Source: Nguyenibacter vanlangensis
GTDB lineage: Bacteria > Pseudomonadota > Alphaproteobacteria > Acetobacterales > Acetobacteraceae
Assembly: GCF_038719015.1 (NCBI RefSeq)
Contig: NZ_CP152276.1
Coordinates: 1,560,001-1,624,000, forward strand
DNA: 64,000 bases
Direction: 5' to 3'
Shown here in pieces: positions 9,989 to 27,890 of the stretch. A program made the position numbers and the translations under genes. Below the pieces are notes generated by a model. The model had not been told where the DNA came from. It was given only the letters and a program-made list of their open reading frames with translations, and made no database searches. Each line of letters starts with the position of its first letter. Within the stretch, counting starts at the first letter, position 1.

Positions 9989-9998
9989 GTCCTGAGTC

Positions 9999-12548: not shown

Positions 12549-12664
12549 GTCGGCTCCATCGGTCCGCCCCGGTGGGGGACCCGCGTTCCAGGCGGAGGGC
12601 ACCGGTTCAATGCGGCGCCGTCCGCAGAAGGATGTTTTCAGATCGTTGTTCGTTTCGTTGTTCG

Positions 12665-13924
12665 TTACGGCGTAAGCCCCTGGCGGCTCAGCAGCCGCCA
12701 CAGGGCCAGCGCCACCACTTTCGTCGCCCGGCGCATGTCTTCCAGGACCACGTGTTCGTCCGCCCTGTGGCCGTTGGCATCCTGAAGGCGGCGCGGCCCC
12801 GCGCCGTACAGGACGGTCGGGCATCCGGCATTGCTGTAGAGGCGGGCATCGGTGAACAGGGCCATGCCCTGCGCCGGGATCCGCTCGCCGATGACGGCTT
12901 CGGCCGCGTCCTGCAGCGCGGCGACCAGAGGGGCCTGGCGGGCCTCGGGCACCAGGGGAAGCGCCAGAAGATGGCGGCGCACGGCGCAGGTCACGCCGTC
13001 GACCGTCGCGGCCCGGGCGATGATGTCGCGCAGTTCGCGCTCCACCTCTTCCGGATTCTCGTGCGGCAGGATCCGCCGCTCCACCCGAAAGGCGGCCTGT
13101 TCCGGCACGACGTTCGCCGCCACGCCGCCGCCCATGGTGCCGATCACCAGGGTGGGCGCGTCGATACCGGGAACCGGAGACGTCCGAAGCGCCAGTTCCT
13201 CCCGGTGGGCATACAGCGCCGCCATCACACGGCAGGCCGCCTGGATGGCGTCGCAGCCCGTGCCGGGCCACGCGGAATGCGCGGATTTTCCCGTGAACGC
13301 CACGTCGAGCTGAAGGCTGCCGTTATGGGCGATCATCACCCCATAGGTGAAACCGGCGCTGATGACGTAATCCGGCCGCGTCAGCCCCTGGTCCAGCAGC
13401 CAGCCCGGCCCCGCGCTTCCGCCCGTTTCCTCGTCATAGGTGAAATGCAGCTCCACCTGCCCCTGCAGGCCGGCGGCGTGGGCGTTCAGGGCCCGCAGGG
13501 CAAAGGCATAGGTCGCGAAATCGGATTTCGAGACCGCGGCACCCCGTCCATACAGCCGACCGTCCTCGATCACCCCCCCATAGGGATCGTGCGTCCATCC
13601 GCCGCCGGGCGGCACCACGTCGCCATGGGCGTTCAGGGCGATGACGGGGCCGTCCCCGCTTCCGAAACGCCGGCGCACGATCAGGTTGATAACGCTGCGC
13701 AGCCCGCTGCGCGCCAGGACGTCCGCCGGCACCGCGTGCCGTTCGACCGCGAATCCCAGTTCCTGCAGGTGATCGGCGGCAAAGCGGCCATGCAGCGCGC
13801 AATCCCCCGGGGGATTGTCCGAGGGAACACGCACCAGTTCGCGCAGGAAGGCGACCTGCAGCGTATCGAAATCGCGATCGACGACATGTTCGATCCCGTC
13901 GCGCGGGATTTTTTCGTCACTCAC
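12665..13924 (-). CDS. M20-family deacylase (ArgE/DapE type), variant metal site
   Basis: A 419-residue zinc-dependent amidohydrolase of family M20. The first metal motif ALNAHGDVVPPGGG and the catalytic DEETGG are present, and the C-terminal histidine motif is ADEHVVLEDM. The second motif reads YGRGAAVSKSD, where the family standard GRGxxDxK has the metal-bridging Asp; here that position is Val and an Asp comes four residues later. This marks either a distinct subgroup or altered metal binding. Likely substrates are N-acyl or N-carbamoyl amino acids made in the same island. It has its own putative promoter and operator in the 187-base gap upstream. Confidence 0.88.
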   Translation of the reverse strand: MSDEKIPRDGIEHVVDRDFDTLQVAFLRELVRVPSDNPPGDCALHGRFAADHLQELGFAVERHAVPADVLARSGLRSVINLIVRRRFGSGDGPVIALNAHGDVVPPGGGWTHDPYGGVIEDGRLYGRGAAVSKSDFATYAFALRALNAHAAGLQGQVELHFTYDEETGGSAGPGWLLDQGLTRPDYVISAGFTYGVMIAHNGSLQLDVAFTGKSAHSAWPGTGCDAIQAACRVMAALYAHREELALRTSPVPGIDAPTLVIGTMGGGVAANVVPEQAAFRVERRILPHENPEEVERELRDIIARAATVDGVTCAVRRHLLALPLVPEARQAPLVAALQDAAEAVIGERIPAQGMALFTDARLYSNAGCPTVLYGAGPRRLQDANGHRADEHVVLEDMRRATKVVALALWRLLSRQGLTP

Positions 13925-14111: not shown

Positions 14112-14834
14112 TCAGCAGACGCTGTTCAGGAACGCCTGCGCGCGCGGGCCGCACCTTCCCGCGAAGAAATCCACCGAGGAACAATCATCGACGATCTCGC
14201 CCCGGTCCACGAACAGGATCCGGTCCGCGACCTGGCGGGCAAACCCCATTTCATGGGTCACGCACATCATGGTCATGCCCTCGCGCGCCAGTTCGCCCAT
14301 GACGGCCAGGACCTCGCCGACCATCTCGGGATCCAGGGCCGAAGTCGGCTCGTCGAACAGCATGATGGAGGGACGCATCGCCAGGGCCCGCGCGATCGCC
14401 ACGCGCTGCTGCTGCCCGCCGGACAGGGCGATCGGATATTTCATCGCATGCTGCGCCAGCCCGACGCGCGCCAGCAGGCGCATGCCGTCGTCGCGCACCA
14501 TCCTGGCGGGGCGCTTCTGCACCAGGCGCGGGGCCAGCATGACATTGTCCAGGATCGTCAGGTGGGAAAACAGCTCGAAGCTCTGGAACACCATGCCCGC
14601 CTTCGCGCGCAGGGCCGGCAGGCTGACATCCGGCGAACGGACGGCCATGCCGTCGACCGTGATCTGTCCGCCCTCGAAGGGTTCGAGCGCGTTGATGCAT
14701 TTGATCAGCGTCGATTTCCCCGAGCCCGACGGCCCGCAGACCACGACGACCTCTCCCTGCCGGATGGTCGCCGAGCAGCCATTGAGGACACGAAAGCCGC
14801 CATAGGATTTCGTCACGTTGTCCAGGACGATCAT
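14112..14834 (-). CDS. Polar amino-acid ABC transporter ATPase (system 1)
   Basis: A 240-residue ABC ATPase of the GlnQ/HisP type. Walker A is GPSGSGKST, the signature LSGGQQQRVAIARAL and Walker B IMLFDEPTSALD, with the switch histidine in VTHEMGFAR. Its ATG overlaps the stop of the fused dehydrogenase gene by four bases. Together with the permease at 17713 and the binding protein at 18462 it makes one importer, although the oxidoreductase is inserted between permease and ATPase. The importer has a single permease gene, so the membrane part is presumably a homodimer. Confidence 0.93.
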   Translation of the reverse strand: MIVLDNVTKSYGGFRVLNGCSATIRQGEVVVVCGPSGSGKSTLIKCINALEPFEGGQITVDGMAVRSPDVSLPALRAKAGMVFQSFELFSHLTILDNVMLAPRLVQKRPARMVRDDGMRLLARVGLAQHAMKYPIALSGGQQQRVAIARALAMRPSIMLFDEPTSALDPEMVGEVLAVMGELAREGMTMMCVTHEMGFARQVADRILFVDRGEIVDDCSSVDFFAGRCGPRAQAFLNSVC

Positions 14835-17713
14835 GCCGAGCCTCCCTGAAAGCGCAGAGGGGAAAAGATGTCGAGATCCGCGCGCCGCCCGGTGCCGAGC
14901 ACCATGTCGGCGACGCCGCGCCCCATGGCCGGCGCCAGCGTGACGCCATTGGCCGTGACGGCGTTGTAGAATCCGGGGACATCCGGGCTTTCGCCCAGGA
15001 TCGGCGCCCCGTCGATATCGATGTTCATGGCCGCCCAGCTCCGCACCACGTGCACGTTTCCCAACGCCGGGATCAACCTGCGGGCCACCCAGAGATTGCC
15101 TTCCAGACTCTCCCGCACCGGCCGCGGATGGCGGTGCACCGCATCCAGCCCGGCGCTCCAGCCCCCGCCGATCAGCAGCGTGCCGTTGGCGGCCTGCTTG
15201 AGCGTCAGATGGCGGCTGGCATGGGCCAGCAGCGACCCGACCAGCGGGGCCACCGGTTCGGTCACGATCATCTGCAGCGGCGCGCCGAAGACCGGCAGGC
15301 GCCGGCCGACCAGGCCGGCGATTTCGCCGGCATAGGCACCGGCCGCGTTCACGACCGCGCCCGCCGACCAGGCCTGTCCGCCCGCGACGATCCGGAATCC
15401 GTTGGTCTCCCGCGTGATCGCCGTGACGGGCGTCAGGGGCCGGATCGCAACGCCTGCCTCCCTGGCCCGCGCCATGACCGCCAGCGTGGCCGCCATCGGG
15501 TTGATCTTGCCTTCCTCCGCGCAATGGGCGCCTCCGAGGAATCCGGCCCCCAGCGCCGGCTCGATCGCCCGCAATTCGCGGCTGTCCACCATGCGGGACG
15601 CCACGCCCAGCGACTGCTCGACGGCCACCTTCGCCCGCAGGCGCGCCATGTCGGCTTCGCTTTCGGCCACGGCCAGGCCGCCGCAGATCCTGATCTCCAG
15701 GTCGCGGTCGAAGAACGGCGCCATGGACTGCCACATCCGGATGGAATCCCGCTGCAGGGCGAGCGTCCGTGCCGGCAGCGACGGACCGTCCGCCCCCGCG
15801 CTGTCGTCGAAGGCCATGAGCTGGGCATGAAGACTGCCGGCATTGCCGCCCGACGCCAGGGCGCCCGGGCGCCCGCGTTCCAGCACGACGACGCGGCGCC
15901 CGGCCTGCGCCAGGAACAGCGCCGCGAACAGCCCGACGATTCCCCCGCCGATCACGACCACGTCCGTCACCTGGACGCCGGCCGAAACCAGGGGCACGGC
16001 CCCCTGCCCCGCCAGGGCGGACGGGATGTCCACACGCCGGTGCCCGCGCCATTCGGGCTTTTCCACCGCCAGGGCGGCCAGCGGGATCGGGCGCAGGGGC
16101 ATCTGCGGCGCGGCGAAATCCATCTCGCCGGTCGGGGCGGGCACCAGGGCGGCCAGCGCGGCCTGGCAGAACCGCCCCTGGCATCGCCCCATCCCGGCCC
16201 GGGTCGCCCGCTTCAGCGTTGCGATGTCCTGCACCGCGTCGCGGGCGCAATGCTGGCGGATCCCGCCGGCCGACAGGGCCTCGCAACGGCAGAGTATCGT
16301 GTCGTCCGCCGGCGCCGGCAGGTCCGCGACCGGCGCGTAGAGACGCCAGAGCAAATCCTGAAAGCGTCGCCCCTGCCGGAAGCGCCGCCGTGCCGCGCGG
16401 CCCGCCGCCACCGGGACCGTCTTCCCGAACAGGGCCAGAAGACGCCCGGCGCACAGCGCGCCCTGCGCCTGCGCGATGGCGGCGCCGCCGAACCGTCCGG
16501 CCTCGCCGATGATCGAGACGTCCGCCCGGTCGGTCCCCCCGTCCGCCGTCCGCCCCGCCTCGGGATGCGGCACGGGCCAGCCGGACACGTGATGCCTGCA
16601 GCCGAGAAGACGCGCCAGTTCGTTGGCCGGCACGAAACCGTCCCCCAGGCACACGGTCTCCGCGTCCAGGCGGCGCTCGCGCCCGTCCGGTCCGGCGACG
16701 ATCGCGGCCTGTGCCTGCCCCGCCCCTTCGATACGGACCAGGCGGCTGCTCCAGAGCACGGGCACGCCGGCAACCCGCAGCCGGGACAAATGCCGTCCCC
16801 CCGTCGCGGCGAGCGACGGGCCGGCGGCGGTCAGGCGGGCGGCCAGCGCGGGCCGCGTCCAGGGGGGCGGGGCGGCCTCGACCAACGCCGCGACCGCAGC
16901 ACCCCGTTTGGCGAGTTCGTCGGCCAGTTGCAGGTTCAACGGCCCGTTCCCCGCGATCACGATCCTGCCCGGCAGGGGACTGTCATAGGCCCGCAGCATG
17001 GTCTGCGCCGCGCCGGTCGTCATGACGCCGGGCAACGTCCAGCCGGGGCGCGGACGCGGCGCCTCCTGCGCCCCGGTCGCGATCACGACGTGACGGGGAA
17101 TGACATAGCCGACCCGCCCCCGCCGAAGAACGCCGACGCGCAGCTCCACCCCTTCGCGGAAAGCCCCCCAGACCAGCGTATCGGTCCAGATCCGCGCACC
17201 GCTGTCCTTCAGCGCCGCGATCGCGTCCCGTCCGTCGCGCGCCTGCGCGTCGGGGGGGCGGGTCCCGACCGCATCCTGCTTGAAATATTGCCCGCCGGGC
17301 CCGTGCCGCTCATCCACCAGCAGCACGTCCAGTCCCCCGGCCGCCATCAGGCGGGCCGCCACGATCCCGGCCGGCCCGCCCCCGACGACCAGCACGTCGC
17401 ACCGCTCCACGCCGATCGCGTCGGGCATGTTGCCCAGCGGCGCGGCGGCCCCGGCATCCGGCAGGGCCCCGGCGCGCCGGACCTCCATGCCCGCGCGCAC
17501 CGCCGTCATGCAGCCGCGCTGGGACAGCCGGCCATCGATCTCCAGCAGGCATTCGTGGCAGGCGCCGATCCCGCAGAGCGGCCCGCGCCGCGTGCCGTCG
17601 CGCGCCGTGCGATGGGCGACGACACCCTGCGCCAGCAGCGCGGCCGTCACGCTCTGCCCCGGCCGGGCCGTCAGGGTGCGCCCTTCGAAACGGAAGGCGA
17701 TTGCGTCGCCCAT
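14831..17713 (-). CDS. Fused three-domain amino/imino-acid dehydrogenase (HcnA-HcnB-HcnC-like)
   Basis: A 960-residue fusion of what are normally three subunits in hydrogen cyanide synthase, octopine/nopaline oxidase and D-hydroxyproline dehydrogenase. Residues 1-95 are a 2Fe-2S ferredoxin-like domain with cysteines 47, 52, 55 and 68 (CGIGACHEC). From about 105 comes a FAD/NAD Rossmann domain (DVLVVGGGPAGI), then a BFD-like 2Fe-2S unit (LCRCEALSAGG, GMGRCQGRFC) near 495-560. From about 580 a DadA/glycine-oxidase-type FAD domain begins (DVVVIGGGIVGLFAALFLAQ). It should oxidise a D-amino or imino acid at the inner membrane side. The gene is joined by one-base and four-base overlaps to the permease and ATPase genes. 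A split paralogue lies at 23313-26195. Confidence 0.9.
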   Translation of the reverse strand: MGDAIAFRFEGRTLTARPGQSVTAALLAQGVVAHRTARDGTRRGPLCGIGACHECLLEIDGRLSQRGCMTAVRAGMEVRRAGALPDAGAAAPLGNMPDAIGVERCDVLVVGGGPAGIVAARLMAAGGLDVLLVDERHGPGGQYFKQDAVGTRPPDAQARDGRDAIAALKDSGARIWTDTLVWGAFREGVELRVGVLRRGRVGYVIPRHVVIATGAQEAPRPRPGWTLPGVMTTGAAQTMLRAYDSPLPGRIVIAGNGPLNLQLADELAKRGAAVAALVEAAPPPWTRPALAARLTAAGPSLAATGGRHLSRLRVAGVPVLWSSRLVRIEGAGQAQAAIVAGPDGRERRLDAETVCLGDGFVPANELARLLGCRHHVSGWPVPHPEAGRTADGGTDRADVSIIGEAGRFGGAAIAQAQGALCAGRLLALFGKTVPVAAGRAARRRFRQGRRFQDLLWRLYAPVADLPAPADDTILCRCEALSAGGIRQHCARDAVQDIATLKRATRAGMGRCQGRFCQAALAALVPAPTGEMDFAAPQMPLRPIPLAALAVEKPEWRGHRRVDIPSALAGQGAVPLVSAGVQVTDVVVIGGGIVGLFAALFLAQAGRRVVVLERGRPGALASGGNAGSLHAQLMAFDDSAGADGPSLPARTLALQRDSIRMWQSMAPFFDRDLEIRICGGLAVAESEADMARLRAKVAVEQSLGVASRMVDSRELRAIEPALGAGFLGGAHCAEEGKINPMAATLAVMARAREAGVAIRPLTPVTAITRETNGFRIVAGGQAWSAGAVVNAAGAYAGEIAGLVGRRLPVFGAPLQMIVTEPVAPLVGSLLAHASRHLTLKQAANGTLLIGGGWSAGLDAVHRHPRPVRESLEGNLWVARRLIPALGNVHVVRSWAAMNIDIDGAPILGESPDVPGFYNAVTANGVTLAPAMGRGVADMVLGTGRRADLDIFSPLRFQGGSA

Positions 17714-18444
17714 CACCGCGCGTCCCGGCTGGCGGCGGCCAGATCCGGCAGGTCGGCCGAACCGGGCGCGGACAGGCGGCGGTACGGCCGTTCGGCATGG
17801 CGCTCGATATGGCGCTGCAGGAAATCCCACGCCGTGGTCATGAAAAGATAATACAGCGCGGCGACCGAGAAGAGTTCGAGCACCATGAACTGGTCCTGTA
17901 CCAGGATCTGGCTGCGCTGCATCAGCTCTTCCATCGAGATGACCGAGGTCACGCTGGTCGTCTTCAGAAGGCCGTTCACCGAATTGCCCAGCGGCGGAAT
18001 AATCAGGCGAAAGGCCTGCGGGAACGCGATGCGGCTGGAAATCTGCCATTCATCCATGCCCAGCGCGCGCGCGGCGGCGATCTGGCCCGGCGGCACGGCG
18101 TTCAGCCCGGCCCGGATGATTTCGGCCAGATAGGCGGCCTCGTTGAGGCTGAGGCCGATCACCGCGCAGGCCGTGACGCTGAGCCGGATATCCAGTTTCG
18201 GAAGCCCGGCATAGATCACGACCAACTGCACCAGCAGCGGCGTGCCGCGGAACAGCCAGACATAGAACCGCGCCGGAACCGACAGCACGCGCCGCCGCGA
18301 CCGTTTCATGACCGCCAGCGCCAGCCCGAGAAGACAGCCGAACACCATTGCCGCGAAGGTCATCCACAACGTGACCAGCGCGCCGCGAAAGATATAGGGG
18401 CTGGTAAGATAGGTGAAGAACCCGTGCCAGTTCCAGACCTGCAT
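17713..18444 (-). CDS. Polar amino-acid ABC transporter permease (system 1)
   Basis: A 243-residue inner-membrane permease of the HisM/GlnP family. Several hydrophobic helices are visible (LVTLWMTFAAMVFGCLLGLA near 24-43 among them) and the EAA loop is EIIRAGLNAVPPGQIAAARALG. It shares one base with the following fused dehydrogenase gene and starts 17 bases after the binding-protein stop. The Arg/Asp-rich C-terminal tail is longer than usual. Confidence 0.92.
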   Translation of the reverse strand: MQVWNWHGFFTYLTSPYIFRGALVTLWMTFAAMVFGCLLGLALAVMKRSRRRVLSVPARFYVWLFRGTPLLVQLVVIYAGLPKLDIRLSVTACAVIGLSLNEAAYLAEIIRAGLNAVPPGQIAAARALGMDEWQISSRIAFPQAFRLIIPPLGNSVNGLLKTTSVTSVISMEELMQRSQILVQDQFMVLELFSVAALYYLFMTTAWDFLQRHIERHAERPYRRLSAPGSADLPDLAAASRDAR

Positions 18445-18461
18445 GTCGGATACCCTGTCGT

Positions 18462-19337
18462 TCAGTAGCGGTCGGAGAGGCGGCCCGGGCCGGACGCCTC
18501 GATCCTGCCGGGAAGCGGGGAGACGCCATAGGGCGCCATGATCCGCGCGAGCGTGCCGTCGTCCTTCATCGCGTTCAGGACCGCGGCGACCCGGTCGGCC
18601 AGCGCGGCGTCGCGCAGGGCCAGCGCCACGGGCGTCGGGTAGAGGCCGCGCAGGTCCTGGCGCACGCCGCCCTGCGCCGCGCCGCGCCTCGCCACGGCGT
18701 CGATCGAGAAGACGGCGAACACCTGGTGCGCGCGCAATGCCGCGAAGGCGATGCCGACATTCTGGAACGTCTTGATGTCCAGGCCGGGCTTTCCGGCCGC
18801 CCGCAGGGTCCGGTCGATGTCGCGGGCATGGCGTTCCTCGATCCCGCCCATCTCGACGCCGACCGACCGGCCGGCCAGGTCGCCGACGCCGCGAACGGCG
18901 ATGGGCGCGTCGTCCGCCACGCTGACGCTGATGGCCTGGATTTCATAAGGCACCATCTCCATCAGCGTCGCCCGCTGGCGGGTGTAGAACATGCCGGTAT
19001 CGATGACGTCCCACCGCCGCTCCAGCAGGCCCAGCGTCAACTGGGCGAAGGACGTGGAGAGGAAGGCGGGTTCCAGGCAGAGCCTGCGCGCGATCTCCCG
19101 CCCCAGCACGATCCGCATGCCCGACAGCTTTCCGTCCACGCTCATATATTGCAGCGGCGGAAGGGTCGGATTCGTCGCCATCGTCAGGCGGCCCGGCGCG
19201 ATGAGGCCCGGCGCGATAAGGCCGGGCACCGCGGGACACGATGCCGCGCAGCAGGGGGCCGCGCGGCAGGGGGCGATCGCCGCCAGCAGCGGCACCGCCA
19301 TCCAGGCGCGGGCACGGGCGGATCGCGCCGCCTTCAT
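18462..19337 (-). CDS. Periplasmic amino-acid-binding protein (system 1)
   Basis: A 291-residue family 3 solute-binding protein. A signal peptide covers about residues 1-35 and is rich in Ala and Cys. The short repeat GLIAPGLIAPG around residues 39-49 reflects a near-perfect DNA duplication. The family pattern is seen in NPTLPPLQYMSVDGKLSGM, RRWDVIDTGMFYTRQRA (the site where ligand carboxylates bind) and the closing MKDDGTLARIMAPYG. Its ATG overlaps the DapA-family stop by four bases. It delivers the substrate to the permease/ATPase pair downstream. Confidence 0.9.
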   Translation of the reverse strand: MKAARSARARAWMAVPLLAAIAPCRAAPCCAASCPAVPGLIAPGLIAPGRLTMATNPTLPPLQYMSVDGKLSGMRIVLGREIARRLCLEPAFLSTSFAQLTLGLLERRWDVIDTGMFYTRQRATLMEMVPYEIQAISVSVADDAPIAVRGVGDLAGRSVGVEMGGIEERHARDIDRTLRAAGKPGLDIKTFQNVGIAFAALRAHQVFAVFSIDAVARRGAAQGGVRQDLRGLYPTPVALALRDAALADRVAAVLNAMKDDGTLARIMAPYGVSPLPGRIEASGPGRLSDRY

Positions 19338-20221
19338 GCCCCGGTGAAACGCAAGTCGAGATCGCGCACGATCTCAAGCGCCTGCGCATCCTGTGCGGGC
19401 GGCAGCGGCAGGCGCGGCGGACGGGGCATCCCCACATCGAGCCCCATATGCTTCAGCAGCGCCTTCGTGCCCGCGACATAGCCGCCGCCGCCCACGAAGC
19501 GGATCAGCGGCACGTGGCGCCGATAGATCTCGCGCGCCGCGCCGATATCGCGAAAACCGTCGCACAGTTCGAAGATCCGGCTCATGGCGCCGGGCGCGAC
19601 GTTCGAGGCCACGGCGACCCACCCCACGGCGCCCTCCAGGAAGCTTTCGAAACCCATGATGCCGCCGAACACGGCCATCCGGTCGCCGCACAGGCGGATG
19701 ATGTCCCGCACCCGCGTGACATCCATGGTGGATTCCTTGATCAGGCGGCAATTCTCGATCGCGCTCAGCCGCGCCACCAGCTCGGGCAGCAGGTCCACGT
19801 TGGCGGTCGCCGGATTGTTGTAGAGCATGATCGGCAGGCCGATCGCATCCGAAACGCGGCGATAATGGACGAACAATTCGTCATCGGTCGGCGTCGAATA
19901 GAAAGGCGGGATGATCATCACGCCGTCCGCGCCCAGCGCCTCGGCCTGGCGGCTGTAGCGGATGACGTCATCCGTATTCTCGGCGCCCGTTCCGATGAAA
20001 ACCGGAACCCGCCCCCCGGCCTGCCCGATCACCGTTTCGGCCACCAGCGCGCGCTCGTCGTCGGTCAGGGACAGGAACTCGCCCGTCGAGCCCAGGGGGA
20101 TCAGCCCGCGGATGCCCTGCGCGATCTGCCAGTCGGTGAAGCGCCGCAGCGCCGCCACGTCGACGCGCCCCCGCCCGTCGAAGGGCGTGATCATGACGGT
20201 GTACGTTCCTCGGAATTCCAC
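19334..20221 (-). CDS. DapA/NAL-family lyase or deaminase (copy 1)
   Basis: A 295-residue protein of the dihydrodipicolinate synthase/N-acetylneuraminate lyase family. The Schiff-base lysine is Lys162 (LIKEST), the catalytic tyrosine Tyr134 (MLYNNPA) and the carboxylate loop LGSTGEF at 43-49, so it should be active. In hydroxyproline degradation the related enzyme is pyrroline-4-hydroxy-2-carboxylate deaminase, which would act right after the flavoenzyme encoded two genes on. Start: a GTG at 20221 preceded by AAAGGAAA is preferred. A longer frame from the ATG at 20272 would reach into the palindromic repeat and has no ribosome site. Confidence 0.88.
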   Translation of the reverse strand: MEFRGTYTVMITPFDGRGRVDVAALRRFTDWQIAQGIRGLIPLGSTGEFLSLTDDERALVAETVIGQAGGRVPVFIGTGAENTDDVIRYSRQAEALGADGVMIIPPFYSTPTDDELFVHYRRVSDAIGLPIMLYNNPATANVDLLPELVARLSAIENCRLIKESTMDVTRVRDIIRLCGDRMAVFGGIMGFESFLEGAVGWVAVASNVAPGAMSRIFELCDGFRDIGAAREIYRRHVPLIRFVGGGGYVAGTKALLKHMGLDVGMPRPPRLPLPPAQDAQALEIVRDLDLRFTGA

Positions 20222-20256
20222 GATATTTTCCTTTGCTAGGCTGGCGGCGCGGCGGC

Positions 20257-20364
20257 CTAGAGTCGTATCCATTCACACTGGTTCACGGATACGGCTCTAG
20301 ATCATTGTTTTGGCGAGCATCTTTATCCGATCAGATGATTCCATCTGATCGGATGATGCTCTAG
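20257..20364. repeat. 108-bp double-palindrome repeat (copy 1)
   Basis: Two hairpins bounded by CTAG tetramers. One pairs AGTCGTATCC with GGATACGGCT around a TTCACACTGGTTCA loop. The other pairs ATCCGATCAGATG with CATCTGATCGGAT, flanked by GAGCATC/GATGCTC arms. A second copy, inverted, lies at 27782-27890. The edge CTAG provides the TAG stop of the minus-strand ATPase gene. It resembles REP/BIME-type intergenic elements and probably acts as a bidirectional transcription or mRNA-end structure. Confidence 0.85.
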
Positions 20365-21083
20365 CCATGGGCGTTCATGAAAGCGGCGATCAGGGGCTCG
20401 GCCGCGGCCTGCGGCCCGGCGCCGACGGCGCGGACCTGTCCCTCTTCCAGCAGCACGATGCGGTCGGACAGGGCGGCGACGGCGTCCATCCCGTGCGAGA
20501 CCTGGATGATCGTCATGCCGCCACGCGCCAGGTCCCGCAGCAGGGCCGTCACCTCAGACACCAGGCGGGGATCGAGGGCCGACGTCGGCTCGTCCAGCAG
20601 CAGCAGGCGGGGCCGGGTCATAAGCGCGCGCGCGATCGCCACGCGCTGTTTCTGGCCGCCCGAAAGCCGCGACGGCAGGGTATCGGCCTTGTCCGCCAGA
20701 CCCAGCGTCCGCAGCAGCCGGCGCGCCGCCTCCCCGGCCTCGGCGCGGGAGCGCCCGGCGACGACGGTCGGCGCCAGCGTCAGGTTGCGCAGGACCGACA
20801 TATGGTCGAACAGGCCGAATTGCTGGAACACGATCGCCGCATGGGCGCGCAAGGCGCAGCCGGCCGAAGCGGCGGTCATATCGATCACCGCGCCATCCAG
20901 CGTCAGCGACCCGCCGACGACCGGCTGCAACCCGATCAGCGCCCGCAGCAGCGTGCTTTTCCCCGAACCGGACGGCCCGATCAGGCTGACGATCTCGCCC
21001 CGCCCGACCTGCAGCCCGACATCGCGCAGGATGTCGTGCGCGCCATGGCGAACCGTCACGCCCCGCAGGTCAAGATATGGCAA
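20361..21083 (-). CDS. Polar amino-acid ABC transporter ATPase (system 2)
   Basis: A 240-residue ABC ATPase. Walker A is GPSGSGKST, the signature LSGGQKQRVAIARAL and Walker B LLLLDEPTSALD. It overlaps the end of the upstream permease gene by 14 bases. Its last two codons and stop lie at the edge of the palindromic repeat, so the native C-terminus may have been slightly altered by repeat insertion. It powers the two-permease importer encoded just upstream. Confidence 0.93.
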   Translation of the reverse strand: MPYLDLRGVTVRHGAHDILRDVGLQVGRGEIVSLIGPSGSGKSTLLRALIGLQPVVGGSLTLDGAVIDMTAASAGCALRAHAAIVFQQFGLFDHMSVLRNLTLAPTVVAGRSRAEAGEAARRLLRTLGLADKADTLPSRLSGGQKQRVAIARALMTRPRLLLLDEPTSALDPRLVSEVTALLRDLARGGMTIIQVSHGMDAVAALSDRIVLLEEGQVRAVGAGPQAAAEPLIAAFMNAHG

Positions 21084-21723
21084 GGCGTTTCTCCAGCATG
21101 CGGCTGAGGCGGGTCAGCGGATAGGAAATGGCGAAATACAGGCCCAGCACGGCCAGAAAGACCTGCACCGTCGGCAGCCCGCGGTTCGAGAGAATGACCC
21201 CCGCCTGATTCAGTTCCAGGACGCCGACCTGCGACGCCAGGGCCGTATCCTTGATGAACAGCACCAGATAGCCGACGGCCGGCGGCACGATCACCGGCAA
21301 CGCCCGCGGCACGATCACGTAGCGCCAGCGCGCCAGCAGGGGCAGGTTGAGCGTGACGGCGGCCTCGATCTGGTCGGCCGGAACGGAATTGAGACCGCCA
21401 TGGACGATCTCGGCGATATATCCCGCCGCGATCAGCCCGATGGCCCAGAGCGCCACGGTCGTTCCCGACACGTCCAGCCCGGCCATGCCCGTCAGGAAGA
21501 ACACGATATACAGCGTCACGATGAACGGGACGCGCCGCACCACCTGCACATAGCCCGCGGCCAGCCAGCGCAGGGGGGCGAGAAGCCGTCCGCGCGCCAT
21601 CCGCAGGCAGGCCAGCGCGACCCCGCCGGCCAGGCCGGCCACGCCGCCCGCGACGGACAGGACCAGCGTCATCCACAGGGCGCGCGACAGCAGCGCGACG
21701 TCATAGTGGGAAAAGGCGATCAT
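21070..21723 (-). CDS. Polar amino-acid ABC transporter permease (system 2, second subunit)
   Basis: A 217-residue HisM/GlnP-type permease with about five transmembrane helices and an EAA-loop segment EIVHGGLNSVPADQIEAAVTL. It overlaps the first permease gene by four bases and the ATPase gene by 14 bases, which implies strict co-translation of the complex. Confidence 0.92.
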   Translation of the reverse strand: MIAFSHYDVALLSRALWMTLVLSVAGGVAGLAGGVALACLRMARGRLLAPLRWLAAGYVQVVRRVPFIVTLYIVFFLTGMAGLDVSGTTVALWAIGLIAAGYIAEIVHGGLNSVPADQIEAAVTLNLPLLARWRYVIVPRALPVIVPPAVGYLVLFIKDTALASQVGVLELNQAGVILSNRGLPTVQVFLAVLGLYFAISYPLTRLSRMLEKRLAIS

Positions 21724-22379
21724 GCCGCGCCCTCGAACATCCTGCGCCCCAGCGCGAACGCTCCCGTCAGGGCGACGGACAGCAGGGCGTACAGCGCCCC
21801 GGCCACCAGCATCACCTCGAGGATACGGAAGGTGGTCGCGCCGACGTCGTAGGCGCGGCCGGTCAGGTCCTCGACCCCGAAGATGGACGCCATCGAACTG
21901 CCCAGGATCATGATCTGGAAATGATTGGCCAATGCCGGCGCCATCGTCTGCAGCGCATGGGGAAAGAGGACGCGCAGATAGGCCTGCCGGCGCGTCAGCC
22001 CCAGCGCCGCCGCCGCGTCGTGATAGAGCGGCGGAACCCGCCCCAGCCCCGCAGCCAGGATATCGGCGAGATAGGCCGCCGCATTCAGCGCCATGCCGAT
22101 GAAGACCGATGCGAACGGCGAGACCATGACCCCCAGCAGCGGCAGGCAGTAGAAGATCGCGAAGATCTGCGAAAGCTGCGGCGTATTGGTCATGATCGTG
22201 CTGTAGGCCATGCCGAGCCGCCGTCCCGCCCCCCGCCCTTCCGCGCGCAGGACCGCCAGGCCGGCGGCCAGGACCAGGCCGGCGGCGAAGGACGCGACGG
22301 ACAGCAGGACGGTCGTCGCGGCGCCCCCCAGCAGGAACGGCAGGCGCTGCAGGACCGGCTGGAAATGCAGCGCCGTCAT
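21720..22379 (-). CDS. Polar amino-acid ABC transporter permease (system 2, first subunit)
   Basis: A 219-residue permease of the same family, with DILAAGLGRVPPLYHDAAAA as its EAA loop. The start at 22379 is chosen because it overlaps the binding-protein stop by four bases; the open frame extends upstream but lies inside that gene. Unlike system 1, this importer has two different permeases. Confidence 0.92.
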   Translation of the reverse strand: MTALHFQPVLQRLPFLLGGAATTVLLSVASFAAGLVLAAGLAVLRAEGRGAGRRLGMAYSTIMTNTPQLSQIFAIFYCLPLLGVMVSPFASVFIGMALNAAAYLADILAAGLGRVPPLYHDAAAALGLTRRQAYLRVLFPHALQTMAPALANHFQIMILGSSMASIFGVEDLTGRAYDVGATTFRILEVMLVAGALYALLSVALTGAFALGRRMFEGAA

Positions 22380-23227
22380 GGCGCCGTCTCCGTCGTCTCC
22401 GCCGTTCCCGTTGGGGCCGCCGGGGGCACGCCGAACCAGCGGCGATAGATGCGCCCGATCGTCCCGTCCCGCCTCATGGCGGCCAGCGTGGCGTCGACCT
22501 GGCGCAGCAGGTCCGCGTCGGACTGGGCCACCCCCACGCAATCCGCGCCGGCGGCGGGGGCGAAGCCGCGCAGGATCGTCCAGTCGGCCTGGGGCTCGGC
22601 GGCCAGGAAGCGCCCGACATATTCGATGACGTCCACCATCGCGTCGCCCCGCCCCTGCGCCAGGGCACGCACCGCGTCCGGATAGCTGCCCAGCAGCAGG
22701 ACCGGCGCCCGCGGCGCGTGCGCGCGCAGGAACGCCACCGCCGTGGAGCCCCGGACCTCGACCATCCGGACACGGCCGGACACCAGGTCGTCGAACCCGC
22801 GCACCCGCGCCGCCGCCGGCGCGACGATGGCGAACGTTTCGGCATAGAGCGGCGTGGAAAACGCGATGGCGGCCGCGCGCTCGGGCGTGCGGGTCAGGCC
22901 GCCCAGCACCACGTCCACCTTGCCGGCCATCAGATAGGGAATCCGCCCGCTCGACGAAACCGGGACGAAACGCGGCGCCACCCCCAGGCGCGCCGCGAGC
23001 ACGGTCCCGACATCGACGTCGAATCCTTCGAGCGCATTACGGGAATCGTAGTCCGCCAGCGGCGGAAGGGCCGGATTGACGCCGATATTCAGATGGCCGC
23101 CGGCGCGGATGTCGGCAAGCGCGCGCGCCCGGGCCGCCGGGCCGGCGAACACGGCCGGGGCCGGCAGGACGGTCGCGGCCAGGACCATGCAAATCGCGCG
23201 CCGTTTCAAGTCTCGGGCTTTCCTCAT
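22376..23227 (-). CDS. Periplasmic amino-acid-binding protein (system 2)
   Basis: A 283-residue family 3 binding protein. A signal peptide ends near VFAGP (residues 1-29). NPALPPLADYDSRNALEGFDV is the start of the ligand fold and is close to the equivalent stretch of the system 1 protein, so the two are paralogues that may take related ligands. MAGKVDVVLGGLTRTPERA carries the usual binding Arg/Thr. It is the first gene of a minus-strand operon whose promoter faces that of the split dehydrogenase genes across an 85-base gap. Confidence 0.9.
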   Translation of the reverse strand: MRKARDLKRRAICMVLAATVLPAPAVFAGPAARARALADIRAGGHLNIGVNPALPPLADYDSRNALEGFDVDVGTVLAARLGVAPRFVPVSSSGRIPYLMAGKVDVVLGGLTRTPERAAAIAFSTPLYAETFAIVAPAAARVRGFDDLVSGRVRMVEVRGSTAVAFLRAHAPRAPVLLLGSYPDAVRALAQGRGDAMVDVIEYVGRFLAAEPQADWTILRGFAPAAGADCVGVAQSDADLLRQVDATLAAMRRDGTIGRIYRRWFGVPPAAPTGTAETTETAP

Positions 23228-23267
23228 CTTGGATATTGCGATCCCCGCGGCACTGCTCTAATGAACA

Positions 23268-23282
23268 TATACGCTCTGTATA
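23268..23282. promoter_or_regulatory. TATAC-N5-GTATA inverted repeat in a divergent promoter
   Basis: TATAC-GCTCT-GTATA lies 40 bases before the binding-protein start on one side and 30 bases before the iron-sulfur gene on the other. It shares TGTATAC with the site at 14002-14008. The position suits an operator that controls both divergent operons, presumably for the GntR regulator encoded at 27132. Confidence 0.45.
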
Positions 23283-23312
23283 CGATCAAAAACCCTTTCA
23301 AGGAAGAGTTTC

Positions 23313-23594
23313 TTGCCCGAACCGATCCCGTGCGAAAACGAAGGCCGTTCCGTCCGCTTCGTCTTCGAAGGCCGCGCGGTGCAGGGGGCCGAGGGCGAGC
23401 CTCTTGCCGCCGTGCTGCGGCGTGCGGGAATCGTGGCCCTGGGCACCTCCCCGCGCGACGGCGCGCCGCGCGGCGCCTTCTGCTTCATGGGCAGTTGCCA
23501 GGAATGCCGCGTGCTGATCGACGGCATCCTGTCCTATGCCTGCAGCACCCCGGTGCGGCCGGACATGACGGTCACGCCCTATGTCGCGTCCTGA
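23313..23594 (+). CDS. Small 2Fe-2S subunit (HcnA/LhpF-like)
   Basis: A 93-residue ferredoxin-like subunit. The cluster cysteines are in CFMGSCQEC plus a fourth Cys 12 residues on (YAC), the same spacing type as the N-terminal domain of the fused enzyme. The gene starts with TTG at 23313, supported by AAGGAAG seven bases upstream; no ATG is possible in the right place. It overlaps the next gene by 14 bases. With the following two genes it forms a heterotrimeric dehydrogenase. Confidence 0.88.
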   Translation: MPEPIPCENEGRSVRFVFEGRAVQGAEGEPLAAVLRRAGIVALGTSPRDGAPRGAFCFMGSCQECRVLIDGILSYACSTPVRPDMTVTPYVAS

Positions 23595-25038
23595 GCGCGG
23601 CGGCGTGGTCGTGGTCGGCGGCGGCGTGGCCGGCGCGACCGCGGCCCTGGCCATCAGCCGCCACGGCCTGCCCGTCACCCTGGTCGACGAGCAGCCGCAG
23701 GCCGGGGGGCAGATCTATCGCGCGCCGACGCCGTACGCGCGGCGGCATGTGCCGCCCAATCACGAATTTTCCGGCGGCGACCGCCTGCGCGCCCTGCTGG
23801 CGGCCTCCAGCGTCCGGACACGCTTTTCCACCCGCGTCTGGGGCGCCTGGGGCGCGTCGCCCGGAATGGAACTGGACCTGCTCGGCCCGGACGGGATCGA
23901 CCGGATCGGCGCCCGGGCCCTGGTCGTGGCGAATGGCGCGACGGAACGCTTCCTGCCCTTCCCGGGCTGGACCGATCCGCGCGTCATCGGGCTGGCGGGC
24001 GCCAGCATCCTGATGCGCAACGGCGGGACGCTGCCCGGCCGGCGCGTCGTCGTCGCGGGCGCCGGGCCGCTGCTCTTTTCCGTCGCCCATCAGGTGATGG
24101 AACTGGGCGGCCGGGTCGTGGCCGTCATCGATTCGGGGCGGCGCGGCGACTGGCTGCGGCTGGCCGCCACCCTGGCATGGGACCCGGCACGCCTGCGCCT
24201 GGCCGCGCAGTGGATGACCCGCCTGCGCCTGGCCGGAATCCCGATCCATCATCAGGCCCGCATCGCCGCCGTCCATCCGGAGGAAGACGGACTGTCCATC
24301 ACGATTTCGGGCACGATTGCGGGCACGGTCGCGGGGACCGGACGGCAGGGAACGCCGGTCCGCCACTACGGCGCGGATTCCGTGGCCTGCGGTCACGGCC
24401 TGAAGCCCGCAACCCTGCTGACCCGCACCCTGGGCGCGCGTCACCGCTTCGATGCGGCCGGCGGCTATTGGGAGCCGGAAACGGACCCGTCGGGCCGCAC
24501 CAGCCGGACGGGCCTCTATGCGACCGGAGACGCCGCGGGCATTCGCGGGGCGGCAGTCGCCCGGCTGCGGGGCCTGATCACCGGCCACGCCGTCGCGCTG
24601 GACCAGGGGGCCATCGCCGAGCGGGATTTCGCGTCCCTGACGCGCCGGCCGCGCATGCTGCTGCGCCGGCAGGAGCATGTGTCGCGCAGGATGCTGCCGC
24701 TTCTCAACGCCTCCGCATCGCTGTCCCGCGCCATCGCGGACGACGCCATCGTCTGCCGCTGCGAGCGGGTGGAGGCGGCGGCGCTGCGTGCGGCCGTGGC
24801 CGCGGGCGCGCGCGACCTCAACCAGCTCAAGGCCTGGACCCGCTGCGGCATGGGCCCGTGCCAGGGCCGCATGTGCGAGGACGGCGCGCGTGGCCTGCTG
24901 GCCGCGTCGTGCGGCCTGCCGCCCGAAGAGGCCGGCAGCTTTACGCCCCGGATGCCCTTCTTTCCCCTGCCCCTCGCGGCGCTGACCGGCACGTTCGCCT
25001 ATTCGGACATACCGCTGCCGAAGGCTGCCCCGCTGTGA
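23581..25038 (+). CDS. FAD/NAD oxidoreductase subunit with BFD-like 2Fe-2S domain (HcnB/LhpE-like)
   Basis: A 485-residue flavoprotein subunit. Residues 9-40 are the dinucleotide fold (VVVVGGGVAGATAALAISR, LVDEQPQAGGQIY). A second nucleotide fold is near VVVAGAGPLLFS. The C-terminal BFD-type cluster site is IVCRCERVEAAAL and RCGMGPCQGRMC. It matches the second quarter to middle of the fused 960-residue protein. The subunit passes electrons from the substrate-oxidising partner to an acceptor, probably the respiratory chain. It overlaps its neighbours by 14 and four bases. Confidence 0.9.
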   Translation: MSRPERGGVVVVGGGVAGATAALAISRHGLPVTLVDEQPQAGGQIYRAPTPYARRHVPPNHEFSGGDRLRALLAASSVRTRFSTRVWGAWGASPGMELDLLGPDGIDRIGARALVVANGATERFLPFPGWTDPRVIGLAGASILMRNGGTLPGRRVVVAGAGPLLFSVAHQVMELGGRVVAVIDSGRRGDWLRLAATLAWDPARLRLAAQWMTRLRLAGIPIHHQARIAAVHPEEDGLSITISGTIAGTVAGTGRQGTPVRHYGADSVACGHGLKPATLLTRTLGARHRFDAAGGYWEPETDPSGRTSRTGLYATGDAAGIRGAAVARLRGLITGHAVALDQGAIAERDFASLTRRPRMLLRRQEHVSRRMLPLLNASASLSRAIADDAIVCRCERVEAAALRAAVAAGARDLNQLKAWTRCGMGPCQGRMCEDGARGLLAASCGLPPEEAGSFTPRMPFFPLPLAALTGTFAYSDIPLPKAAPL

Positions 25039-26195
25039 CCGCGCTTCAGGACTGGCCCGACGGCTCCGTGGACGTCGCGGTCATCGGCGGCGGCGTCATG
25101 GGCGCGACCACCGCGCTGTTCCTGGCGCGCGGGGGCATGCGCGTCGCCCTTCTGGACCGGCAGGACCTGTTCCGGGCCGCGTCCGGCGTCAATGCCGGCA
25201 CGCTGACCCTGCATATGACGCGCGCGCAACTGATCCCCCATGCCATGCGCGGCCGCGAAATGTGGCTGGCCAGCCGGGACTGGCTGGGGGCGGATGTCGG
25301 CGCGCTGGCCGCCCCGGGCCTGTCCCTGGCCTTCACGGAAGCCGAGGAGGATTTGCTGCGCGCCCGCGCGCGGATCCGGCGGCAGGCGGGCGCGCCGATC
25401 GACATCGTCCCGCCGTCTCGCGCCGCGGCGATCGAACCCGGCCTCAACCCCTCGGTCCGGGCCGCGGCCTATTGCGCGCTGGACGGGCACATCCCCGCCT
25501 ACCGCGTCGGGCGGGCCTATGCGCAGGCGCTGGCCCAGGCGGGCGTGATGCTGTTCGCGCACCGCGCGGTCGAGGCGATCGTCCCGGACGGCGCGGCCGG
25601 CGGATATGCCGTCCACTGCGCGGGACATGCGCGCCCGCTGGCTGCCAGGCGCATCGTGCTGGCGGGCGGCGTGTGGCTGGAGAAGATGCTGGGCTGGTTC
25701 GGCCACGCCATCCCCATCCGGTGCCTGGTCAACCAGCTCGCCGTGACCGAAACGATGCCGCGCGTCATGGGCAGCGTCGTCAGCATCGCCAACGGCCTGC
25801 TGTCGCTCAAGCAATTCGCGAACGGCAGCGTCCTGATCGGCGGCGGATGGCAGGGCGAGGGCAATATCCATGAAGGCGGCACCCGCGTCATTCCCGAGAA
25901 CCTGCGCGGCAATCTGCGCCTGGCGCAGCATGTCGTTCCGCGCCTGGCCCAGGCGCAGATCCTGCGGGTGTGGCTCGGCCTCGAATCCGAAACGCCCGAT
26001 GCCATGCCGCTGATCGGCGCCCTGACCGCCCGCGACGACGCGTTCGTGATCGGATGCGTCCATTCCGGCTTCACCAGCGGCCCGTATATGGGCCGCCTGC
26101 TGGCCGAACGCATCCTTGGCGGCGCGCCCGACCTGGGCGCATTCGATCCCCGCCGGTTTTCCCCCTCGCCCAGCCTTCCGGAACACACGCCATGA
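25035..26195 (+). CDS. DadA-type FAD oxidoreductase, catalytic subunit (HcnC/LhpB-like)
   Basis: A 386-residue FAD-dependent amine oxidoreductase of the DAO family. The Rossmann motif is VDVAVIGGGVMGATTALFLA at about 11-30, and GLLSLKQFANGSVLIGGGWQ is characteristic of HcnC/opine-oxidase beta subunits. It begins with GTG inside the stop of the preceding gene (GTGA), the only start that fits the fold. It should bind the amino or imino acid and form the imine that the next gene's DapA-family product may act on. Confidence 0.9.
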   Translation: MTALQDWPDGSVDVAVIGGGVMGATTALFLARGGMRVALLDRQDLFRAASGVNAGTLTLHMTRAQLIPHAMRGREMWLASRDWLGADVGALAAPGLSLAFTEAEEDLLRARARIRRQAGAPIDIVPPSRAAAIEPGLNPSVRAAAYCALDGHIPAYRVGRAYAQALAQAGVMLFAHRAVEAIVPDGAAGGYAVHCAGHARPLAARRIVLAGGVWLEKMLGWFGHAIPIRCLVNQLAVTETMPRVMGSVVSIANGLLSLKQFANGSVLIGGGWQGEGNIHEGGTRVIPENLRGNLRLAQHVVPRLAQAQILRVWLGLESETPDAMPLIGALTARDDAFVIGCVHSGFTSGPYMGRLLAERILGGAPDLGAFDPRRFSPSPSLPEHTP

Positions 26196-27139
26196 TCCCT
26201 GCTTCCGCGACCCCCTTCCGGGGCGTCTACGCCGCGACGCTGCTCCCCCTGCGCGAGGACGGGACCATCGACGCGCCCGGCCTGGCCCGGCACCTGAAGG
26301 ACTGCACGTCCACGCCGGACATCGTGGGAATCCTCTGCAACGGCCATGCCGGAGAGAACCACCTGCTGGACCGCGAAGAGAAACGTCTCGTCGTCGAGAC
26401 CGCCCGGCGCGCGATCGGCGCGGAGAAGATCATCGTCTCGGGGGTGCTGTCCGAGGACGTCGCCGAAGCCTGCCGGCATGCCCGGGACGCGGTCGCGGCG
26501 GGGGCGGACGCCCTTCTGGTCTTTCCTCCCTTCTCCTGGGCCGTCTCGCAGGATGCCGAGGCGATCGTCGCCCATCACCGCGCCATCTGCGATGCCGTGG
26601 ACGCGCCGGTCATGCTCTACCAGTCCTCGGTCGGCAGCGGCGGCATGGCCTATTCCCTGCCCATCCTGGAACAATTGCTGCGGCTGCCCCGGATCGTGGC
26701 GGTCAAGGAAGGAAGCTGGGAGACCAACGCCTATGACCGCCACCGCACGCTGGCGGCGCGCGTGGCGCCCCATGTCGAGGTCATGGCCTCGGGCGACGAG
26801 CATCTGCTGCCCTGCTTCGCCATCGGGACGACCGGCAGCCTCGTCAGCCTCGCGGCCATCCTGCCCGGCAGCATCGGCAGATTGTGGGCCGCCGTCCAGG
26901 CCGGGGACCTCGGCACCGCCCGCCGGATTCATGCCGCCATCCAGCCCCTGGCGAACCTGATTTACGGCCGCCCGCCCGCCGGCCGGGCCACGCTGCGCCT
27001 GAAGGCCTGCCTGGTCATGCGCAAGAAATGGTCCTCCTGCCGCACGAAGAAGGCCGCGGACGTCCTGTCCGAACAGGAATGGCGGGAATTGTCGCAGGCA
27101 CTAGAATGCGCGCTGGCAATGGAACTGGAATGTGACTGA
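26192..27139 (+). CDS. DapA/NAL-family lyase or deaminase (copy 2)
   Basis: A 315-residue DapA-family protein that differs clearly from copy 1. Schiff-base Lys172 (VAVKEGS) and Tyr143 (MLYQSS) are retained; the carboxylate loop is CNGHAGENH instead of LGSTGEF. It overlaps the preceding gene by four bases (ATGA) and the following regulator by eight. Copies 1 and 2 may act on products of the fused and split dehydrogenases respectively. Exact reaction unknown. Confidence 0.87.
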   Translation: MIPASATPFRGVYAATLLPLREDGTIDAPGLARHLKDCTSTPDIVGILCNGHAGENHLLDREEKRLVVETARRAIGAEKIIVSGVLSEDVAEACRHARDAVAAGADALLVFPPFSWAVSQDAEAIVAHHRAICDAVDAPVMLYQSSVGSGGMAYSLPILEQLLRLPRIVAVKEGSWETNAYDRHRTLAARVAPHVEVMASGDEHLLPCFAIGTTGSLVSLAAILPGSIGRLWAAVQAGDLGTARRIHAAIQPLANLIYGRPPAGRATLRLKACLVMRKKWSSCRTKKAADVLSEQEWRELSQALECALAMELECD

Positions 27140-27785
27140 CAGCATGGTAGCCGAACGCGAACTCAATCTGGCCGAACTGGCCTACGGGCAGATACGGCGC
27201 ATGATCCTGGAACGGGAACTGCCCGGCGGCATGTCGGTCGTCGAGGGGCGGCTGGCCGACCATCTCGAAATTTCCCGCACCCCGGTCCGCGAAGCCCTGA
27301 TGCGCCTGGCCGCCGAGGGGCTTCTGACCAAGCAGGGATCACGCTCGTTCGCCGTCCGCCGCGTCTCGGCCGCCGAGTTCTTCCAGAGCATGCATATCCG
27401 CGAGGTCCTGGAAAGCGAGGCGATCCACCTGGCCTTCGGGAAGATCGACCGCAGCCGTATCGTCGATCTGCGCGGCAAGGTCATCGCCCTGGGGGAATGC
27501 CCCGACCAGACGGCCGCGCATTGGCAACTGGATGACCAGATCCATCTGATGTTCGCCCGCGCCTCGGGCAACATCGTCCTGACCAAGACCATAGACGAGC
27601 TGCGGACGCTGACGCGCCTGTGCGAGGTCACCTATCCGCTGGGGCGCGTACCGGCCTCGACCGTCGAGCATCTGGCCATCCTCGACATGCTGCTGGAAGG
27701 CGATGCCGAAGCCACCAGGACCGCCATGCTGACCCATCTGCGCAACGTCGCGACGGACTGCATGGACATTCTTCGCGGCGGCTAG
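27132..27785 (+). CDS. GntR-family regulator, FCD type
   Basis: A 217-residue repressor. The N-terminal winged helix spans about residues 15-78 (AYGQIRRMILERELPGG, EISRTPVREALMRLAAEG) and the rest is the all-helical FCD ligand domain with its metal-binding residues around LDDQIHLMFARASGN and VEHLAIL. The start is GTG at 27132 overlapping the previous stop; an ATG at 27144 is possible. As the last gene of the plus operon it probably senses the substrate or an intermediate and controls both divergent operons. Its stop codon lies inside the palindromic repeat. Confidence 0.9.
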   Translation: MTDSMVAERELNLAELAYGQIRRMILERELPGGMSVVEGRLADHLEISRTPVREALMRLAAEGLLTKQGSRSFAVRRVSAAEFFQSMHIREVLESEAIHLAFGKIDRSRIVDLRGKVIALGECPDQTAAHWQLDDQIHLMFARASGNIVLTKTIDELRTLTRLCEVTYPLGRVPASTVEHLAILDMLLEGDAEATRTAMLTHLRNVATDCMDILRGG

Positions 27786-27890
27786 AGCATCATCCGACCG
27801 GATGGGCGCATCCGGTCGGATAAAGATGCTCGCCCAAAACAATAAGCTAGAGCCATATCCGTGAACCGGTGTGAACGGATATGGCTCTAG
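27782..27890. repeat. 109-bp double-palindrome repeat (copy 2, inverted)
   Basis: Inverted counterpart of the element at 20257. One hairpin pairs AGAGCCATATCCGT with ACGGATATGGCTCT; the other pairs TCCGACCGGATG with CATCCGGTCGGA, with GAGCATC and GATGCTC as outer arms. The intervening CGCCCAAAACAATA spacer matches copy 1. The first CTAG holds the TAG stop of the GntR gene. Compensating base changes between the copies keep both stems, which argues for selection on structure. Confidence 0.85.

Follow-up and report, generated by a model that had tools for sequence, protein, structure and literature searches.

Does a flavoenzyme that appears twice at one locus, once as a single polypeptide and once as three separate genes, owe its fused form to the genes next to it, and what might the two copies do? 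We addressed this question in a 64,000-nucleotide stretch of DNA from Nguyenibacter vanlangensis (hereafter, the window), which covers bases 1560001–1624000 of the 4.75-Mb single-contig genome; positions below are those of the window. The fused copy is a single-chain variant of a known enzyme type, found in a widespread pathway.

Gene organization of the locus

The genes of the island fall into two modules, A and B. On the minus strand, the module B transporter comes first (23227–20361: binding protein, two permeases and ATPase) and is followed by module A (20272–12665: DapA-like gene, binding protein, permease, fused gene, ATPase and M20 hydrolase). The plus strand carries the remaining module B genes (23313–29353: gamma, alpha, beta, DapA-like, GntR and hydantoinase-like). 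The individual features are as follows.

Module A
12665..13924, minus strand: M20 family (ArgE/DapE-like) amidohydrolase (PF01546; TIGR01910 above cut-off)
14112..14834, minus strand: ABC transporter ATPase (PF00005; open frame from 14840, start read from the sequence)
14831..17713, minus strand: fused gamma-alpha-beta flavoenzyme, 960 aa
17713..18444, minus strand: amino-acid ABC permease, the single permease of the module (PF00528; HEQRo_perm_3TM above cut-off)
18462..19337, minus strand: solute-binding protein family 3 (PF00497)
19334..20272, minus strand: DapA-like lyase (PF00701)

Module B
20361..21083, minus strand: ABC ATPase (PF00005)
21070..21723, minus strand: ABC permease 2 (PF00528)
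21720..22400, minus strand: ABC permease 1 (PF00528; start uncertain, open frame to 22541)
22376..23227, minus strand: solute-binding protein family 3 (PF00497)
23313..23594, plus strand: split gamma subunit, 93 aa, TTG start (Fer2_4 12–88)
23581..25038, plus strand: split alpha subunit, 485 aa (Pyr_redox_2 9–328, Fer2_BFD 390–441, SO_alpha_A3 395–469)
25035..26195, plus strand: split beta subunit, 386 aa, GTG start (DAO 13–359)
26192..27139, plus strand: DapA-like lyase (PF00701; start inferred, open frame from 25970)
27132..27785, plus strand: GntR/FCD regulator (PF07729, PF00392)
27947..29353, plus strand: hydantoinase/dihydropyrimidinase-like amidohydrolase (PF01979)

The reading of the locus as two parallel transport-plus-oxidation units is supported. 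A preliminary description of this DNA had placed the fused gene between a permease gene (17713–18444) and an ATPase gene (14112–14834). This position is correct, and both junctions overlap (TGATG between the permease and fused genes, ATGA between the fused and ATPase genes). The accompanying idea that the arrangement couples uptake with oxidation does not hold as a general device: in other relatives (e.g., L022 and L031) the ATPase gene directly follows the permease gene, and the fused gene occupies another site in the cluster.

The two DapA-like proteins share 27% identity over 263 positions. The module A lyase retains the region of the Schiff-base lysine (IKES) and lacks the arginine of the DHDPS motif YNVPxRT, reading YNNPATA against YNVPGRT in P. 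aeruginosa DHDPS, with a threonine aligned to that arginine; the module B lyase, read from its own sequence, has YQSSVGS at the same site. We take the arginine of the YNVPxRT motif to be Arg138. According to a study of P. aeruginosa paralogues, Arg138 is a variable position among DapA paralogues, and PA0223 (3NA8), whose motif resembles that of the module A lyase, showed no DHDPS activity (PMC3281039). For the module B hydrolase at 27947..29353, the best PDB matches are the D-hydantoinase 1nfg and the dihydropyrimidinase 3sfw.

Genes for a TonB-dependent receptor and a class-V aminotransferase (9999–12608 and 8716–10350, respectively, both on the minus strand) come after the M20 gene. Two transposase genes, DDE_Tnp_1 and IS66 (40280–41437 and 42755–44065), are found at a distance of 11–15 kb, as would fit a patchy island.

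Domain architecture and cofactor motifs

The fused gene is encoded on the minus strand (the plus-strand open frame at 14831–17713 is not the gene) and has no internal stops. Pfam assigns to its product, in order, Fer2_4 (3–80), Pyr_redox_2 (106–378), Fer2_BFD (473–523) and DAO (584–937), all above the curated cut-offs, with Fer2_BFD scoring 28.6 bits against a cut-off of 26. These calls agree with the order of 2Fe-2S, FAD/NAD, BFD and DadA-type FAD domains described earlier. Full length is shared by 118 of the 120 listed protein relatives (at least 930 aa), which rules out an assembly or sequencing artefact as the source of the fusion.

Pfam likewise confirms that the genes at 23313, 23581 and 25035 carry the same modules in the same order, with the qualification that the FAD/NAD and BFD units share one gene, the BFD unit forming the end of alpha. 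The gamma and alpha genes overlap by 14 nt and the alpha and beta genes by 4 nt, the GTG start of beta lying on the alpha stop (GTGA).

The gamma motif C-X4-C-X2-C-X11~12-C is present in the fused chain as C47, C52, C55 and C68 (X12) and in the split gamma subunit as CFMGSCQECRVLIDGILSYAC (X11). The BFD-type motif C-X-C ... C-X4-C occurs in both window copies and in 118/118 fused relatives, with 33 residues between the cysteine pairs in the fused copy and 32 in the split one; PMC4575208 prints X15~20 for this gap. It also occurs in 44/44 fused frames from loci L009–L051, L064–L067 and the window, a set selected by the gamma motif. ADP-binding motifs lie at 111–116 (GGGPAG) and 589–594 (GGGIVG) of the fused chain, and the Arg-X-Trp motif reads RSW (891–893) in the fused chain and RVW in split beta. 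Across 118 aligned fused proteins, all eight cluster cysteine columns and R891 are invariant.

The linker that joins the alpha and beta parts of the fused proteins contains three invariant residues, E554, W555 and H558, in a 64-row alignment of the window protein and 63 of the 120 listed proteins. The string EKP occurs in 29 of the 44 fused frames and is missing from the Vibrio frame, so the linker is less uniform outside the aligned rows.

Relationship to characterized enzymes

The domains and motifs bear out the proposed kinship to the OpnDH/D-HypDH/HcnABC enzyme type. According to PMC4575208, enzymes of the OpnDH/D-HypDH type are dehydrogenases that act with artificial acceptors or cytochrome c and not with NAD or oxygen; they contain two FAD, one FMN between alpha and beta, and one 2Fe-2S cluster in gamma, and they are known as multi-subunit, membrane-associated complexes that are hard to purify. 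The make-up of three separate subunits (alpha4 beta4 gamma4) is found at the gene level in the split trio and not in the fused gene, which encodes a single chain. Such a single-chain form of a multi-subunit enzyme type could make the electron relay easier to study by structural and kinetic methods.

Among the named systems, the flavin-containing opine dehydrogenases OdhABC, OoxAB and NoxAB resemble the window copies in their gamma, alpha and beta modules, in the C-X4-C-X2-C-X11~12-C motif and the cysteines of BFD type, and in having two ADP motifs as well as the Arg-X-Trp motif, a proposed FMN-binding site (PMC4575208). They differ in that one window copy is a single chain and in that neither window copy falls within the OoxB clade; each window copy is linked to a DapA-like gene. 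The best PDB sequence match of the fused DAO part is the archaeal L-proline dehydrogenase PDH1 (1y56), also the only match for fused residues 2–257 among the PDB matches listed. The N-terminal ~120 residues of PDH1 alpha correspond to gamma (PMC4575208). Unlike the fused chain, PDH1 has beta as a separate subunit, and it is far in sequence. Closer relatives are the two-gene forms of Paracoccus aminophilus and Roseicitreum (L143, L144), which are among the nearest kin of the fused clade and have gamma fused to alpha and a DapA-like gene nearby; they differ from the fused gene in their separate beta and in the sugar-type ABC genes and GcvP near them. The alpha and beta parts also show weak similarity to sarcosine oxidase SoxA/SoxB, but membership in that family is ruled out by scores of 98.8 against a cut-off of 1164 and 80.5 against 529.45.

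Distribution of the fused gene

Of 8000 candidates scored in a protein search, at least 2228 proteins matched, and these are not exclusively fusions. We fetched 44 genome loci, and 39 of them contain a full-length fused frame; the other five are contig fragments (L036, L042 and L045), a two-gene form (L044) and a distant DAO protein (L052). L045 is a contig of Nguyenibacter vanlangensis LMG 31431 whose fused fragment is 99% identical. The hosts of the fusion, several of which are metagenome bins, include Acetobacteraceae, Devosia, Thalassospira, Lichenibacterium, Xanthobacteraceae, Rhodobacterales, Kaistia, Granulosicoccus, Halieaceae and Vibrio. This spread over many families shows that the fused form is no local accident, and it is part of the outcome that the preliminary description had itself named as refuting its view. 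On plasmids, the first 14 matches listed are single-piece and cover 98–100% of the query (Rhizobium, Aureimonas, Agrobacterium, Azospirillum and Variovorax); those below are partly split genes joined together.

Within the host family, a fused match was found in 97 of 397 genomes and 39 of 102 genera (E 1e-60), counts that take in fragments and some two-gene or lone-beta relatives. Within the genus, the fused gene is present in 3 of 13 relatives. An even draw over the class gave 2 of 289 genomes including our own (E 1e-100). With only 1 of the 288 others positive, the fusion is widespread yet sparse at the class scale.

Phylogeny of the two copies

The preliminary description had explained the two copies by an in-operon fusion followed by divergence. 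In its recent form, this explanation derives the fused gene from the adjoining trio, and it gains some appeal from the equal module order and from the 4-nt overlap of the alpha and beta genes, which a small indel could join. The fused and split copies, however, are only 31–32% identical, and the tree of the DadA-type part that had been suggested as a check places the window copies in separate clades that are not sisters.

In a quick tree of the DAO part (76 rows), the fused proteins form one clade (support 98) and the split proteins another (100). In a careful tree of 60 rows, from which 16 of the 76 were dropped as long branches, outgroups or near-duplicates, the fused clade is supported at 98/97, the split clade at 100/100, and a clade of fused, two-gene and lone-beta kin at 100/99. 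Forcing the fused and split clades to be sisters costs 21.65 log units and is rejected (p-AU 0.00102). The middle part gives the same separation: the split proteins (98) stand apart from the fused and two-gene forms (96) in a 51-row tree, and sisterhood is rejected with p-AU 7e-6 (28 rows). For the fused forms alone as a clade, the middle part gives neither a rejection (p-AU 0.177, 28 rows) nor a demonstration of monophyly. Closest to the fused clade are the two-gene forms (gamma-alpha fused, beta apart), which fall outside it by the DAO part and inside it, unstarred, by the middle part. The deeper node that unites the split clade with the fused-plus-two-gene clade has weak support (82/46 for the DAO part; 92 with 28 rows and 72 with 46 rows for the middle part), and both clades may have a remote common origin within the enzyme type.

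The protein ends point the same way. Split-clade alpha subunits share a C-terminal tail of their own (DIPLPKAAPL and alike, in 4/4 examined) with no counterpart in the fused proteins, and the fused-type linker is absent from all 18 alpha tails of split or two-gene forms. Together with the occurrence of fusions in many families, this makes a recent origin from the adjoining trio highly improbable. The fused and split copies are old separate clades of distantly related paralogs, and this host did not make the fusion locally; the trees thus correct the idea of a recent local fusion. Given the clades and the rejected sisterhood in both trees, the simplest reading is a single fusion after the copies had parted: the fusion would have arisen once, in a lineage already apart from the module B trio, and then spread widely. 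We also considered P0199, a 468-aa beta relative with a BFD part, as an alpha-beta fusion of the split lineage, but it reads like a misjoined prediction.

Conserved gene neighborhoods

We compared 8 kb on each side of the fused-type gene in 40 loci whose flanks reach 5 kb or more upstream and 3 kb or more downstream (39 carry the fused gene and one, L044, is a two-gene form; 8 of 48 loci were excluded for short flanks, and ten of the 40 are close acetic acid bacteria). A DapA-like gene is present in all 40, an ABC ATPase in 38, a family-3 binding protein in 36 and a permease in 36, followed by M20 (31), GntR (27), DUF3830 (22), PTE (18) and hydantoinase (8). M20 or hydantoinase occurs in 37 of the 40 loci and neither in three. 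On Agrobacterium vitis and Aureimonas plasmids, the order is GntR, GntR, binding protein, permease, DapA-like, fused gene, ATPase, dihydropyrimidinase and DUF3830.

The split module is kept in L068 and L145–L148; in Acidisoma, L146 and L147, the split trio follows the same recipe with no fused gene. DapA-like genes also accompany 5/5 two-gene loci (L133, L134, L143, L144 and L044) and 3/3 epimerase-linked loci examined (L129–L131). Each copy thus belongs to its own conserved module with an amino-acid-type ABC transporter, a DapA-like lyase, an amide hydrolase and often a GntR regulator. These neighborhoods point to a recurrent pathway composed of an ABC importer, an amide hydrolase, a flavoenzyme and a DapA-like lyase, for which we found no assigned substrate in the literature. 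No paper on this fusion or neighborhood was noticed among titles and abstract beginnings of the open-licence literature, where we also found no biochemistry of any close member.

DUF3830 (PF12903; e.g., L031:12860–13273), which accompanies 22/40 fused-type loci, is a family of unknown function, and no paper with this name was found in the open-licence literature.

Co-occurrence of the two modules

The two modules are adjacent in ten acetic-acid-bacterial loci (L009–L017 and L040), among them that of Gluconacetobacter diazotrophicus (L009), and lie near each other in different layouts in Marinibacterium (L037) and Roseomonas (L050/L148). M20 and aminotransferase matches accompany the cluster in most of these ten loci. 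In the family draw, genomes with the split copy have a fused match more often (30 of 42) than genomes overall (97 of 397; Fisher p 9e-12), and so do split-bearing genera (15 of 21 against 39 of 102; p 8e-4). Neither test corrects for kinship, genome size or detection thresholds, and the fused counts also contain fragments as well as some relatives with two genes or a lone beta. Among the 30 genomes that carry both copies, the two share a contig at a distance of 7–9 kb in nine and of more than 250 kb in three, and they sit on separate contigs in 16; in the remaining two, G554 and G326, the nearby "fused" match turned out to be a lone beta or one and the same gene.

The clustering might mean that one enzyme follows the other in a reaction series, or that each takes a different stereoisomer of a single compound class; two substrate or stereo-specificities, as suggested in the preliminary description, would be compatible with the data. 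The adjacency in the ten loci, the proximity in Marinibacterium and Roseomonas and the co-occurrence across genomes and genera favor this idea. Against it, 12 of the 42 split-bearing genomes have no fused match, the copies lie within 10 kb on one contig in only 9 of 30, and the congener G532 has the split module without the fused gene. We regard such cooperation as possible but rather doubtful; it would be compatible with the best explanation given below.

In G532, the split module, M20 and aminotransferase are kept and the fused gene is absent. All that is left of the DapA-like gene of module A is a remnant of 216 bp, so module A was probably lost in this genome. The fused module is reduced to this remnant at 4836–10526 of the corresponding locus (L145), where permB2 is also broken by ~1.4 kb, perhaps an insertion.

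Proposed function and alternative pathways

Both copies are best read as putative dye-linked dehydrogenases that serve the breakdown of an amino or imino acid in a DapA-coupled pathway. On balance, we find it rather likely that the locus holds two ancient paralogous catabolic modules head to head, each with an importer, a dye-linked dehydrogenase, a DapA-type lyase and an amide hydrolase. In each module, the family-3 ABC transporter would import a small amino-acid-like compound, and the amide hydrolase (M20 in A, hydantoinase-like in B) would probably free an amino acid from a cyclic or N-acylated precursor. The amino or imino acid would then be oxidised at the FAD of the DAO part, with electrons taken from a C–N bond and passed through an OpnDH/D-HypDH-like relay (FMN, a further FAD and 2Fe-2S) to a presumed non-NAD acceptor. 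The 2-oxo or imino product could be handed to the module's own DapA-type Schiff-base lyase. In module A, the three subunits are one polypeptide.

The domains, the intact motifs, the separate clades and the conserved neighborhoods are observed; we infer the reaction order, the acceptor and the precursor type in this scheme, as we do the single origin of the fusion. A common type of precursor is a guess, because the hydrolases differ between clades and three of 40 loci have neither M20 nor hydantoinase. More broadly, and tentatively, the fused genes may mark a new DapA-coupled pathway for cyclic or N-acylated amino acids in many Proteobacteria, with a single-chain oxidation step, to which acetic acid bacteria would add a split paralogous pathway for a sister compound or stereoisomer.

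Could both copies instead belong to the trans-4-hydroxyproline pathway, as D-hydroxyproline dehydrogenases that work with DapA-type deaminases? D-HypDH is built from the same three subunits, and a DapA-family deaminase takes part in its pathway (PMC4575208 and PMC4113996). The epimerase-linked loci L129–L131 hold DapA-like genes too, so DapA coupling alone would also accord with a hydroxyproline-like use. That pathway, however, consists of DAO, DapA-type and aldehyde dehydrogenase proteins plus an epimerase, with hydantoinase, PTE, M20 and DUF3830 outside it, as drawn in PMC4113996. The N. vanlangensis genome encodes no full-length 4-hydroxyproline epimerase: the sole PF05544 match is partial (28.6 bits against a cut-off of 27, positions 55–123 of 325) and lies ~430 kb away. 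Aldehyde dehydrogenase, a family not specifically searched for, is not among the named neighbors; hydantoinase or M20 genes are. In the middle-part tree, the epimerase-linked enzyme (L129) is a distant row, which was also the row picked as root, and its beta part, too short after trimming, is outside the DAO-part tree. For want of a full-length epimerase, we set this pathway aside as the favored reading and judge it unlikely.

Opine dehydrogenases of the nopaline or octopine type match in enzyme type and transporter family, and the OoxAB operon (L136) has adjoining ABC genes. In the DAO-part tree, OoxB and the other beta parts of B-C-A gene order nevertheless form a separate clade (100/100), and the C-A-B-order and B2 kin form a third clade (97/92) that also excludes the fused and split copies, in a tree whose rows do not include the type-2 reference BjOdhB2. 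Eight loci of opine type or similar (L136–L142 and L062), where flanks are mostly shorter, showed no DapA-like gene. We consider it quite unlikely that both copies are opine dehydrogenases, and we retain the DapA-coupled amino or imino acid pathway as the preferred reading.

Two further three-part sets were noted. One lies elsewhere in the N. vanlangensis genome (L062, bases 2604000–2622000, with the trio at ~6689–9473 of this segment); it has the C-A-B order, and its nearest relative in the trees is a trio on a Paraburkholderia plasmid (L139). The other, in Gluconobacter potus (L012:19111–22637), lies ~6 kb past the fused gene together with a further beta fragment, and its beta groups with one of a Ti plasmid (L137) in the DAO-part tree.
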